Of a stretch of 64,000 nucleotides of DNA, positions 51,476 through 58,856 are shown one piece after another (within the stretch, counting starts at the first letter, position 1; every line of letters begins with the position of its first letter). Under the pieces are notes generated by a model, which did not search any database, was not told the origin of the DNA, and saw only the letters and a list, made by a program, of their open reading frames with translations. Origin of the DNA: Alterinioella nitratireducens (GTDB lineage: Bacteria; Pseudomonadota; Alphaproteobacteria; Rhodobacterales; Rhodobacteraceae); NCBI RefSeq assembly GCF_013155465.1, contig NZ_JABJVX010000001.1, positions 434,001 to 498,000 of the forward strand. Reading direction: 5' to 3'. Made by a program: the position numbers and the translations under genes.

Positions 51476-51796
51476 TTGACTGTCAAACGCAAGCGGCATC
51501 ATGATCTCGACGCCATCCAGTCGAAATTCAGGAATGTGGACAGCCTCGAAATTACGCGAACCGCGGTGAAGACGGCAAACGCGCTCGGCTACGGGCTTGA
51601 GGACATCGTGGAGGCGGTCGGAGATTTGGAAGAAGGGGATTTCGTGAGTTCACGGCCCGCGCATAGCCCCCCGATTCCCGGCGTCTGGCACGATACATAC
51701 AACATGTGGTGGGATGAGCGTCATCTCTACATCAAGTTCGCGGGCGAGACGATTATCGATATCACACTGGTGTCGTTCAAGGAGAAGGGCGAATGA
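51476..51796 (+). CDS. mqsR: MqsR-type mRNA interferase toxin
   Basis: 106 aa. Compared with E. coli MqsR, the protein keeps the pattern ITRTAVKTANALGY, a later EEGDFVSS with the W/D/Y core in VWHDTYNMWW, LYIKFAGET and the terminal VSFKEK. MqsR cleaves mRNA at GC-containing sites. The start appears to be a TTG at 51476, with AAGG six bases upstream; no ATG or GTG start would preserve the N-terminal domain. The stop overlaps mqsA by four bases. Confidence 0.85.
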   Translation: MTVKRKRHHDLDAIQSKFRNVDSLEITRTAVKTANALGYGLEDIVEAVGDLEEGDFVSSRPAHSPPIPGVWHDTYNMWWDERHLYIKFAGETIIDITLVSFKEKGE

Positions 51797-52266
51797 CTGA
51801 AACCCGTATTCATCCGGTCACCGGCAAGCGTCTCACGCGTCAGGTCCGGACACAGGTTGTCGCCTTCGGCTCACTGAGTGCAAGCGCGGATGTGCCTGGG
51901 TGGTATCCGGAGGATGACAGCGACTCGATTCACTCGGGGTCGGACCTTTCGGAGCGTGACGAAGTGTTTGCGAAGCTTCGCAAAGCATATGGCGAACACG
52001 TCCGGGAAATCCGCAAGTCATTGCGGTTGACGCAGGTCGAAGCGGGCAATCTGGTCGGTGGCGGGCCCCGTGCCTTTCAGAAATACGAAAAGGGTGTCAT
52101 GCCCCCGAGCGATGCGGCGGTCGGGCTTCTGGAGATTCTCTGGAACGACCCTGCCAAGATCGAGCTCCTGAAGGGGCTCAGAAAGAGCCGGTCGGAAGTG
52201 CCAGAGGGGGGACAGGGATCGCTGCCGATGCGCAAGGCGAGCCGCCGAGGCGATGCGACAGCATAG
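51793..52266 (+). CDS. mqsA: MqsA-type antitoxin with cysteine-free N-terminal domain
   Basis: 157 aa. The C-terminal helix-turn-helix (about 85-130) reads IRKSLRLTQVEAGNLVGGGP followed by RAFQKYEKG, as in MqsA. E. coli MqsA has a zinc-binding N-terminal domain with cysteines; this protein has no cysteine anywhere, and the start is IHPVTGKRLTRQVRTQ, continuing with VPGWYPEDDSDSIHSG. This belongs to a cysteine-less MqsA subclass or has lost the metal site. It neutralises MqsR and probably represses the operon. Confidence 0.82.
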   Translation: MTETRIHPVTGKRLTRQVRTQVVAFGSLSASADVPGWYPEDDSDSIHSGSDLSERDEVFAKLRKAYGEHVREIRKSLRLTQVEAGNLVGGGPRAFQKYEKGVMPPSDAAVGLLEILWNDPAKIELLKGLRKSRSEVPEGGQGSLPMRKASRRGDATA

Positions 52267-52997: not shown

Positions 52998-54407
52998 GTG
53001 AGATATTTAGCCATAGCCCTTTTTGGCCTTTTCGCAACCACCGGCGCGGCGCTTGCCTGCCCGGATTACAGCCAGACCGGTGCGACCTATAATTACACCG
53101 GCGATCAGCTTTACAGCCCGCAATCCTTCAGCGTTGTGGCCGGTGGCCAGAACCAGCTGCGCAACTGCAACATGAACTATCCGGGCTATGCCACCTCGGC
53201 CCCGGATTTCTCGTTCTACCTGAGCGGGATGGACCCGTATTACCTGGTCGCGGATGTCGTCAGCTCCTGCGATTCCCTGCTGCTGGTGAACACGGCCAAC
53301 GCCACCTGGCTGTTCGACGATGACAGCAGCGAGGGGTTGCAGCCCCGGCTTGAAGTGCGCGGCGCGCAGAACCTCAATGGCCGCGTCGATGTCTGGGTCG
53401 GAACCTATAACGGCTCCTATTGCGATGCGACGCTGAACATGGAGACCTGGTATGCCCAGGCCCCGGCCCCGACGCCCACACCGGCGCCGACCCCGGCCCC
53501 GGTGCCGACGCCGACACCCGCCGCCGCGTGCCCGAGCTTTGCCGCGCCCGCGCCGCAATACTACTCGATCACCGGTCAGCAGCTCTACACACCGCAGAGC
53601 TACCAGGTGACCGCCGTGGGCGGTGCCTCGCTGCGCAGCTGCAACCTGCAATATCCCGGCTATGCCAGCCAGGTTCCGCAATATTCCTTCGAGATGAGCG
53701 GGATGGACCCCTATTACCTGGTCGCGGATGTGCAGGCCTCCTGCGATACGCTTCTCTTGGTGAACACGGCGAACGGCACCTGGCTGTTTGACGATGACAG
53801 CGCCGGCAGCCTGCAACCGCAGTTGGAGGTGCGCGGCGCGCAGAACCTCAATGGCCGGGTCGATATCTGGGTCGGCACCTATGGCAACACGTCCTGTCAG
53901 GGAACGCTGAACATGGAAAGCTTCTATGCGCAGGCCCCGACGCCCACGCCGACCCCCACGCCGACCCCGATGCCCACGCCCACGCCGACCCCGGCGGGCG
54001 GGTGCCCGTCCTGGCAGGTGCCGGGCCAGACCTACAACCTGACCGGGCAGCAGCTCTACAGCCCGCAGCGCTATCAGGTCACGGCCAGCGGGTCCGCCAA
54101 CCTGCGTGACTGCCCGATGGAGGGCCGCGGCTATGTCAACCAGCAGCCGCAATATTCCTTCATCCTGTCGGGCATGGAGGAGTATGGCCGGCTCGAGATC
54201 GAGGTCGAGAGCCAGTGCGATCCGACCCTCCTGGTCAACACGCCGAACACGACCTGGCATTTCGACGATGATGGCGGCGGCAGCCTGCAGCCGGAGCTCA
54301 ACATCACCTCGGGCCCGAACCTGAACGGCCGCCTGGATGTCTGGGTCGGGACCTATAACGGCAACTCCTGCCAGGCCACGCTGGAACTGGAGACCTGGTA
54401 CAACTGA
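52998..54407 (+). CDS. secreted protein with three copies of a novel four-cysteine beta domain
   Basis: 469 aa. Signal peptide 1-20 (MRYLAIALFGLFATTGAALA), then three units of about 135 residues joined by TPAP/TPTP linkers (155-175 and 313-333). Each unit has four cysteines at matched places: 21, 57, 91, 142; 178, 215, 249, 300; 336, 372, 407, 458. Consensus pieces are CP..., TGxQLYxPQ, PGYAxxxPxxSF, SGMDPYYLVADV, LLLVNTANxTW.FDDD and NLNGRxDVWVGTY. The acidic FDDD turn and WVGTY strand recall PPC-like beta sandwiches; no Pfam family is claimed. GTG start with GGAGGA ten bases upstream. Confidence 0.85.
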   Translation: MRYLAIALFGLFATTGAALACPDYSQTGATYNYTGDQLYSPQSFSVVAGGQNQLRNCNMNYPGYATSAPDFSFYLSGMDPYYLVADVVSSCDSLLLVNTANATWLFDDDSSEGLQPRLEVRGAQNLNGRVDVWVGTYNGSYCDATLNMETWYAQAPAPTPTPAPTPAPVPTPTPAAACPSFAAPAPQYYSITGQQLYTPQSYQVTAVGGASLRSCNLQYPGYASQVPQYSFEMSGMDPYYLVADVQASCDTLLLVNTANGTWLFDDDSAGSLQPQLEVRGAQNLNGRVDIWVGTYGNTSCQGTLNMESFYAQAPTPTPTPTPTPMPTPTPTPAGGCPSWQVPGQTYNLTGQQLYSPQRYQVTASGSANLRDCPMEGRGYVNQQPQYSFILSGMEEYGRLEIEVESQCDPTLLVNTPNTTWHFDDDGGGSLQPELNITSGPNLNGRLDVWVGTYNGNSCQATLELETWYN

Positions 54408-54435
54408 TACCGGCGATCGCTGGAAACTTAGGAAG

Positions 54436-54465
54436 GGGCCGCTCCGACCGGGGCGGCCCTTTTTC
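54436..54465 (+). terminator. terminator of the three-domain secreted protein gene
   Basis: GGGCCGC (54436-54442) pairs with GCGGCCC (54453-54459), followed by TTTTTCC. The remaining 280 bases to the next gene are AT-richer than the surroundings and show only short repeats. Confidence 0.85.
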
Positions 54466-54745
54466 CGTTTCGGGCGCGGGGCGGCAAAAAATTCTGGACG
54501 TGGCGTCAAGCCTCGATAATACTCTTTGCCAAGGCCGGTGACGTGAACGTCAGCGTCAGCTTCCGGTCGGTCGCTTGTCGATAGCGTGAGGGGGCGGAAT
54601 GCCTTGGGATCATTGAAGAATCCTCCTTTGAACCCCGTTCCCCAATGCCACGACATACAAAAAGTAACGGGTCGATCACTTTTCGTGTAGACAGGACACT
54701 AATCGGGGGCTAATGTCCCCTTGCATGATAATAATGGAGTTTACA

Positions 54746-55213
54746 ATGCGCACCCTAATTGCTTCCTTCTTCGTTCTTTTGTCCCTTTCAGCTGCGGCGG
54801 TGGCCTGTCCCCAGATCCAGCAAGGTCGGGCGTCCTATTCCGTGACCGGCCAGGATCTCTACACCCCCAACCGCTATTCCGTCACGGCCGGCGGCAACCA
54901 GAACCTGCGCAACTGCGGCTGGAACAACACCGGCTATGTCATTTCGCAGCCTGATTTCTCGTTCTATACATCCGGCATGAGCGGATATGGCCGCCTCGAG
55001 ATCGAAGTGACCCAGGCCGCCTGCGACACGATCTTGCTGGTGAACTCGGCCAACGCGTCCTGGTTCTATGACGATGACAGCGCCGGCTACCCGAACCCGC
55101 GCATCAACCTCTATGGCACCGCCAACACCCAGGGCCGTATCGACGTCTGGGTCGGCACATATGGCACCTCGAACTGCTCGGCGACGCTTGAGATGGAAAC
55201 CTGGTACAACTGA
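54746..55213 (+). CDS. secreted single-domain paralogue of the four-cysteine family
   Basis: 155 aa. Signal peptide 1-20 (MRTLIASFFVLLSLSAAAVA), then one domain with cysteines at 21, 57, 93 and 144. It shares with the preceding gene TGQDLYTPNRYSVTAGGNQN, SGMSGYGRLEIEV, ILLVNSANASW.YDDD, and GRIDVWVGTYG ending ETWYN. It is closest to the third unit of the upstream gene (both have YGRLEIEV and end ETWYN). ATG at 54746 follows TGGAG. It has its own terminator. Confidence 0.85.
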   Translation: MRTLIASFFVLLSLSAAAVACPQIQQGRASYSVTGQDLYTPNRYSVTAGGNQNLRNCGWNNTGYVISQPDFSFYTSGMSGYGRLEIEVTQAACDTILLVNSANASWFYDDDSAGYPNPRINLYGTANTQGRIDVWVGTYGTSNCSATLEMETWYN

Positions 55214-55236
55214 GACCGGATCCCATGATCGCAAGG

Positions 55237-55267
55237 AAGGCCGTCCCGCATCGGGGCGGCCTTTCTT
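55237..55267 (+). terminator. terminator of the single-domain gene
   Basis: AAGGCCG-T-CCCG and CGGG-G-CGGCCTT form a long stem around CAT, followed by TCTTCTTTC. It lies 24 bases after the stop. Confidence 0.85.
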
Positions 55268-55504
55268 CTTTCGGGGCAGGGGAGATGGATACGTGTTGCA
55301 TATACACGAACATGAGTCTACCCTCTGCCTTGCGGCCCGATTCCCTGACCGGACTGCAAATGACCCGCAAGCCAGCCCGTCCCCCTGAAGGCCGGACCGG
55401 CCTTGCCAAACCCAACCGGGCCGATCTGTCCCCAATTGCTTTTCCCTACGTTCCGGCCCATCCTTAACCCCAATGTTTTTAAGCCCCTACCTGGAGTCAC
55501 TGCA

Positions 55505-56215
55505 ATGAAATCGATTCTCCTCTCCTCCGCCTTCGTCCTGGCGACAAGCGCCGCCGGCTTTGCCTGCCCAACCTGGGAGCAACCCGGTGAAACCTACAGC
55601 TTCACCGGCGCGCAGCTGGTCGGCGGGCAGCAAGCGCCCGTGGTCGCGGGCGGTCAATTCTCGGTCGCGGATTGCGGTCTGCCGGGCGTCGGTGCCGCCG
55701 CGGCCACGCCGGACTTTTCCCTGATCCTCAGCCAAATGGACGATTATGACCTGGAACTGTCGGTCGAGTCCGCCTGCGACGCGACATTGCTGGTCAACAC
55801 GGTCACCACGACCTGGCTGTTCGATGATGACAGCAATGGCAATCTCGACCCGCGCCTGACCGTGTCGGGGGCCGAGAACCTGAATGGCCGCGTGGATATC
55901 TGGGTCGGCTCCTATGATGGCAGCTTTTGCGAGGCCAGCCTGACGGCGCAAGCGATCCCGGTCGGCGGGGCGGCCCCGGCACCGGGCGGCGGCTTTGCAC
56001 CTGCGCCGGGTTCGGATACGGATACGCCTGCACCGGCGCCTGCACCGGCACCGGCCCCCGCACCTGCTCCGGCGCCTGCACCTGCTCCGGCGCCCGCGCC
56101 TGCTCCGGCGCCTGCACCAACTCCGGCGCCCGCACCTGCTCCGGCGCCCGAACCCGCGCCTGCACCGGCCCCTGCACCAGCTCCGGCTCCGGCCCCTGGC
56201 GGTGACAACAAGTAA
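55505..56215 (+). CDS. secreted four-cysteine domain with Ala-Pro repeat tail
   Basis: 236 aa. Signal peptide 1-20 (MKSILLSSAFVLATSAAGFA). One domain (about 21-152) with cysteines 21, 57, 91, 142 and the family motifs TLLVNTVTTTWLFDDDS and NLNGRVDIWVGSYDGS. The last 80 residues are a PAPAPAP repeat with a few Thr and Glu residues, DNA of near-tandem CCTGCTCCGGCG-type units. The tail is a stiff spacer typical of surface-exposed proteins. Third of three adjacent paralogues. Confidence 0.85.
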   Translation: MKSILLSSAFVLATSAAGFACPTWEQPGETYSFTGAQLVGGQQAPVVAGGQFSVADCGLPGVGAAAATPDFSLILSQMDDYDLELSVESACDATLLVNTVTTTWLFDDDSNGNLDPRLTVSGAENLNGRVDIWVGSYDGSFCEASLTAQAIPVGGAAPAPGGGFAPAPGSDTDTPAPAPAPAPAPAPAPAPAPAPAPAPAPAPAPTPAPAPAPAPEPAPAPAPAPAPAPAPGGDNK

Positions 56216-56235
56216 CGACCTGCCGACCACCATCG

Positions 56236-56269
56236 CGGCCCGCCCCTTGCACAAAGGGGCGGGCCGTTT
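56236..56269 (+). terminator. terminator of the Ala-Pro tailed gene
   Basis: CGGCCCGCCCCTT pairs with AAGGGGCGGGCCG (13-base stem, five-base loop), followed by TTTCTC. Confidence 0.92.
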
Positions 56270-57610: not shown

Positions 57611-57878
57611 GAGTTCTCCAGTCTTTTTTACAGGGCGCGTTTCAAAGGCCGGGGCTGATCCTCCGCCCCCCGACCACGAGAGACCGCGCCGGTGCATGGG
57701 CAACGGCGGAGGAAGTCCGCGTTATAGCCATCTGGGCGCGGGGATCAAGCAGGTTTTGCGGGCCAGCACGAATGCCCATGAAGGATCACGCGGCGGTCAC
57801 GATTTCTGCGCAATTCGAGGCGAATTTTCATCAACCGAATCCAGATGATCCAGATTGGGACGAACAATCGTGTTGAAC

Positions 57879-58856
<978 letters not shown>

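Follow-up and report, generated by a model that had tools for sequence, protein, structure and literature searches.

PPC domains (PF04151) are modules classically found on secreted peptidases (PMC2605481). Those of collagenases bind collagen, one PPC domain is known to bind collagen without calcium, and the PPC of the Grimontia/Vibrio M9A collagenases carries four conserved cysteines (PMC6168687). A halolysin has at its C-terminus a disulfide-containing jelly-roll that helps it to bind substrate (PMC3158780). A PPC-type calcium site, with one Asp on strand D and an Asp-Asp pair that follows strand E, has been described in DeCLIC, where site 1 consists of Asp76, Asp123 and Asp124 together with backbone carbonyls and overlaps a site of Tk-SP (PMC12664993). 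Our literature search found nothing specific that ties PPC domains to Rhodobacteraceae.

Here we describe a family of exported four-cysteine domains that came to light in three adjacent genes of Alterinioella nitratireducens, at 52998-56215 of the window, i.e., the whole 64,000-nucleotide stretch that was analysed (Table 1). A GGAG-type ribosome site stands in front of each gene, and each product begins with a hydrophobic signal peptide whose A-x-A-like cleavage site abuts the first cysteine; the export call thus rests on signal-peptide features judged by inspection. Lipoprotein anchoring was considered and rejected, also by inspection, since the residues ending in Cys1 (ALAC, AVAC and GFAC) lack the L, V or I at position -3 of a lipobox; an equivalent of Cys1 recurs in internal domains as well. 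Three hairpins that a simple scan had overlooked were later located 3' of the genes. Changes relative to the orthologues in Nioella-like genomes fall mostly at third codon positions, and NG86 dN/dS values of about 0.14-0.28, obtained for orthologue pairs with computable dS, indicate purifying selection. Genes 1-3 are therefore regarded as maintained protein-coding genes.

Table 1. Features of the three-gene locus and of the neighbouring stalk gene (window coordinates).
Feature	Position	Strand	Description
Gene 1	52998..54407	+	Putative exported protein, GTG start, 469 aa, three PPC-like domains, Pro/Thr/Ala linkers
Gene 1 domain copy 1	53058..53453	+	
Gene 1 Pro-rich linker, domains 1/2	53454..53528	+	
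Gene 1 domain copy 2	53529..53927	+	
Gene 1 Pro/Thr-rich linker, domains 2/3	53928..54002	+	
Gene 1 domain copy 3	54003..54404	+	
Terminator-like hairpin 3' of gene 1	54431..54464	+	dG -29.3, z -3.1, TTTTT tail
Gene 2	54746..55213	+	Putative exported protein, 155 aa, a single domain; mature part begins at 54806
Terminator-like hairpin 3' of gene 2	55236..55264	+	dG -28.2, z -3.0
Gene 3	55505..56215	+	Putative exported protein, 236 aa, one domain and long PAPAPA tail ending GGDNK
Gene 3 domain	55565..55957	+	
Hairpin 3' of gene 3	56235..56267	+	dG -35.2, z -6.2, weak T tract
Stalk gene	57855..58856	+	Flp-prepilin-like N-terminus (SG|AVTADY) and Gly-Asn repeat stalk; putatively associated gene

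The five domain copies of the trio share 40-65% pairwise identity, and with the P0002 copy as query the E-values between copies range from 1e-27 to 1e-44, far beyond chance. The sequence-only reading of this DNA had proposed much of this layout, and several of its claims are borne out: adjacent genes in which the same domain occurs three times, once and once, export of all three products, tandem expansion with proline-rich spacers, a terminator for each gene (the third hairpin having a weak T tract), and the shared motifs LLVNTxNxTW, FDDD and GRxDVWVGTY. It had also given the cysteine spacing as about 36, 34 and 51. The first and last values stand, whereas the second varies from 34 to 36, as the cysteines of P0002 lie at 1, 37, 73 and 124 (spacings 36, 36, 51) and those of other copies are spaced 36, 34 and 51. 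Pfam, NCBIfam and PHROGs hold no model for the domain, the window proteins giving only low-complexity or chance matches there, and a four-cysteine profile found no match among PDB sequences.

Four cysteines are present in 94 of the 101 domains of a first collection, made up of loci fetched from other genomes (cited below by L numbers). Of 160 domains, 119 have both C73 and C124, 41 have neither, and none has just one of the two. C1 and C37 also co-occur, save for three rows in which the C1 position is a gap, and this is the only pair left in six members. Such paired loss suggests two disulfides, C1-C37 and C73-C124. On inspection, members from other Alphaproteobacteria lack these pairs and instead show one cysteine before a GY/GF motif and another within W-(Y/H)-C-(D/N)DD, which probably form an alternative bridge.

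An AlphaFold2 model computed from 47 window and related sequences predicts a beta-sandwich (mean pLDDT 95.6, pTM 0.90). Foldseek placed Tk-SP first (3.4e-4), and a second-look structural aligner returned the ColG collagen-binding domain s3b (Z 9.4, rmsd 2.9, 95 residues aligned), the Tk-SP jelly-roll (Z 9.2, rmsd 2.8, 95 aligned), the ColH collagen-binding domain (Z 8.9, rmsd 2.8, 104 aligned) and the PPC of a B. anthracis collagenase (Z 8.2, rmsd 3.2, 98 aligned). PPC-type domains, including the KP-43 subtilase jelly-roll, are at or near the top with both methods. The enterotoxin claudin-binding domain and the SID1/SIDT ectodomains also matched structurally; they are read as the common jelly-roll arrangement because no sequence profile backs them.

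Since Z values of 8-9.4 can reflect a common arrangement, evidence of PPC kinship was sought in the sequences themselves. Against a PPC profile built from PF04151 matches in Rhodobacteraceae, the whole-family profile gave an E-value of 2.1e-6 and a score of 38.5, compared with a maximum of 21.9 in 100 column shuffles and 11.2 for the reversed profile; the four-cysteine members alone reached an E-value of 5.3e-5 and a score of 31.5 against 18.6 in shuffles. The alignment runs in register, matching CD..LLVN to D.yL.l, FDDDS to nDDgg and GR.DVWVGTY to GtYYI. PF04151 itself finds two family members directly at 21.9 and 18.6 bits (E-values 3.4e-4 and 3.5e-3), below the curated Pfam cut-off of 25.9 bits, and has no match among the window proteins at that cut-off. 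Among PDB sequences, the broader members match KP-43 (E-value 0.005), DeCLIC and SubHal best. On the strength of these profile scores, in-register motifs, direct PF04151 matches and PDB sequence matches, the domain is treated as divergent PPC-like. As judged from profiles and model, it is a divergent relative of the PPC/collagen-binding jelly-roll superfamily that falls outside PF04151 as now modelled. The sequence-only reading had called the domain unrecognised and had suggested a structural comparison; that description now applies to the catalogues, which have no model for it, and no longer to its kind, because predicted structure and profiles alike place it with PPC and collagen-binding jelly-rolls.

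The acidic DDD turn, which had drawn attention from the start, is conserved and plausibly forms a calcium site. D74, D91 and D92 are all aspartate in 152 of the 160 domains, and the triad is kept in 37 of the 41 that lack the second cysteine pair. The W121-DDD-GG stretch of DeCLIC (PDB chain numbering) aligns with nDDgg of PPC and with the DDD of the family, so that D91 and D92 fall on the calcium-binding aspartate pair of the channel. Asp76 of DeCLIC lies 47 residues before Asp123, whereas D74 and D91 of the family are separated by 17; thus only the DD pair, and not Asp76, is directly aligned. Conservation and alignment support D74/D91/D92 as a candidate calcium site.

The genomic setting of the family is well defined. 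Of the 17 named relatives that were retrieved, 16 have trio-type genes adjoining rplI-rpsR-rpsF, and the remaining one (L055) has little flank on one side; the opposite flank is the trigger factor gene (tig) wherever the contig extends that far, with fabD-fabG beyond. The idea of a three-gene family proved too narrow, as this tig-rplI/rpsF slot holds from 1 to 9 domains, and elsewhere the domain occurs alone or on proteases. The host genome has three further copies: contig C1 bears a single-domain gene, C33 another copy, and C42 a copy fused to a trypsin-like protease, next to which a caspase-like gene carries an additional weak copy. A tree recovers position-by-position orthologues: genes 2 and 3 have partners in Nioella-like genomes, and the three domains of gene 1 pair with those of two relatives. 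In N. ostreopsis, domain 3 has been amplified to near-identical copies (90-100% DNA identity). An orthologue in an Octadecabacter metagenome bin (L050, 5968-6474) is broken by an in-frame stop and may be decaying or misread. The distribution, which the sequence-only reading had proposed to check, covers 52 of 296 sampled Rhodobacteraceae genera (18%) and scattered other Alphaproteobacteria, and no match was obtained outside Alphaproteobacteria in the phylum sample. Presence in only 18% of the sampled Rhodobacteraceae genera means that the domain is not essential. A mobile-element origin was rejected, as there was no plasmid match and no viral relative and the chromosomal slot is conserved. Directly upstream of gene 1, at 51476-52266, lies an MqsR-like toxin with an MqsA-like antitoxin (PF15723, E-value 3e-16; PF15731, E-value 4e-11), a pair that is absent from the slot in the relatives examined.

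The Pfam domains found on the same protein as the family domain are Trypsin, Peptidase_C14 (caspase), LCCL and HpiC1-like, and a TadE fusion was detected below cut-off. The latter concerns two TadE-like proteins (L089, L091; TadE E-values 0.004-0.009) with a divergent domain copy at the C-terminal end. In one relative (L086, 1886-6514), six tandem domains adjoin a protein that combines a single copy with two LCCL domains. Three genomes, the host among them, have trypsin-like and caspase-like domain-bearing genes side by side; both members of the pair end in versions of the domain (L011, 7937-10784 on contig C42; also L094 and L100), and they appear to form a conserved exported protease pair.

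A second type of fusion is found in the rpsF-fabD slot of Roseibacterium (L046) and of two relatives (L090 and L092), where a Flp-prepilin-like N-terminus is followed by a Gly-Asn or Asp-rich stalk, with the domain as C-terminal head. The stalk gene of the window is the domain-less counterpart of the Roseibacterium gene (L046, 10657-11850) in the same slot, and its product has no Pfam match. The N. ostreopsis counterpart (L041, 5788-7182) carries an extra long DDRDDGDD acidic stalk. Among these stalk genes the N-termini share no more than 20-26% identity and lack Pfam matches, so that they are read as pilin-like on the basis of the motif G-(A/V)-x-T-x-D-(Y/W); the host genome does contain a true Flp pilin gene. 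The strongest indication of a role for the heads at the cell surface comes from the fusion of a Flp-like stalk to the domain, and the TadE-like fusions count in the same direction.

We consider it moderately probable that the trio encodes calcium-stabilised multivalent binding heads that serve in surface or matrix attachment. According to this proposal, Sec export would be followed by disulfide formation in each module, which the bridges and a calcium ion coordinated by D74, D91 and D92 would stiffen. The proline-rich linkers would keep the modules apart, and the spaced modules could then bind an extracellular protein or polysaccharide weakly and multivalently. Calcium is plentiful in seawater, where the proteins would serve as surface or matrix attachment heads. 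A binding role is suggested by analogy with PPC modules, and a marine bacterium may target a polymer other than collagen. A wider scheme, which we advance only tentatively, would be a modular attachment system in which calcium-locked heads are mixed with Flp-pilin-like stalks of the Gly-Asn or Asp-rich type, TadE-like proteins and protease/caspase partners at a fixed slot by ribosomal and fatty-acid genes, and in which the heads of the window act with the neighbouring stalk protein.

As the sole full-length secretin found in the genome adjoins a CpaB-like gene (by inspection), as in Tad pilus loci, and the other match is a short protein, passage of the Sec-exported trio proteins across the outer membrane is hypothetical. 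Protease-partner and periplasmic roles are retained as rivals of attachment. On one hand, the trio proteins might assist exported proteases in trans, by directing them to substrates or by stabilising them, as PPC domains do in cis. The host genome does fuse the domain to a trypsin-like protease, with a weaker version on the adjacent caspase-like protein, and secreted peptidases are the classical carriers of PPC modules. Nevertheless, the slot of the trio in the window contains no protease, and tandem arrays with long linkers and pilin-like stalk fusions suit attachment better, so that we regard the partner role as improbable. On the other hand, the proteins might protect the periplasm or cell envelope, for instance as a type with the fold of the PliG lysozyme inhibitor. 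PliG is a structural neighbour (Z 8.1, rmsd 3.3, 102 residues), and Sec export with a hypothetical outer-membrane route would suit such a role; yet the sequence profiles favour PPC, with PliG not among them, and PliG offers no parallel to the multi-copy arrays, proline-rich rods and pilin-like fusions, which makes this role less probable still. Very improbable, finally, is that the PPC likeness reflects convergence on a common beta-sandwich by an unrelated new superfamily: structural Z values of 8-9 are near the level of common arrangements and the smaller four-cysteine alignment matched PPC more weakly (hhalign probability only 6.7%), but the larger alignments stand far above both sets of controls, PF04151 picks up two members directly, the DD and GxYxIxVG motifs are in register, partner domains such as trypsin are held in common, and intermediate sequences that connect family and PPC with significant E-values are partly seen already.

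The analysis assigns a fold and a probable ancestry to an exported domain that is widespread but has had no model, and it supplies concrete residues for mutation (D74, D91 and D92). It suggests how surface-colonising marine bacteria may make calcium-dependent attachment proteins. What is new is an uncatalogued four-cysteine exported family, the PPC-like kind of fold being known already, and a Pfam family of its own in the PPC-like fold group would be justified. Of greater interest is that the domain is combined with pilin-like stalks and with protease pairs.

In comparison with described systems, the family resembles PPC (PF04151) in its beta-sandwich, in the motifs D..L.V....G....(N/D)DD...G and GxYxIxVG, in its presence on exported trypsin-like proteases and in its tandem occurrence. 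It differs in scoring below the PF04151 cut-off, in having an additional N-terminal region, where Cys1 and Cys37 lie, in two conserved putative disulfide pairs, and in being mostly stand-alone, as single domains or as tandems with proline-rich linkers. Placement at the C-terminus of exported peptidases is seen in the trypsin-like and caspase-like relatives, whereas the window proteins have no peptidase. The s3 collagen-binding domains of Hathewaya (Clostridium) ColG and ColH are the best structural matches (Z 8.7-9.4) and are exported binding modules, as proposed for the family, in tandem in ColG, but they share 10-15% identity with the family and stand at the end of a collagenase. The PPC of the Grimontia/Vibrio M9A enzymes is also exported, with a like number of conserved cysteines (four) and a binding role of the kind proposed for the family, and it too is part of a collagenase, unlike the family. 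The N-terminal lobes of DeCLIC and the Tk-SP and KP-43 jelly-rolls belong to the same fold class, with the DDD turn aligned to DeCLIC calcium site 1; DeCLIC has the longer stretch between calcium-ligand residues, and these domains are regulatory or stabilising, in a channel and in subtilases.
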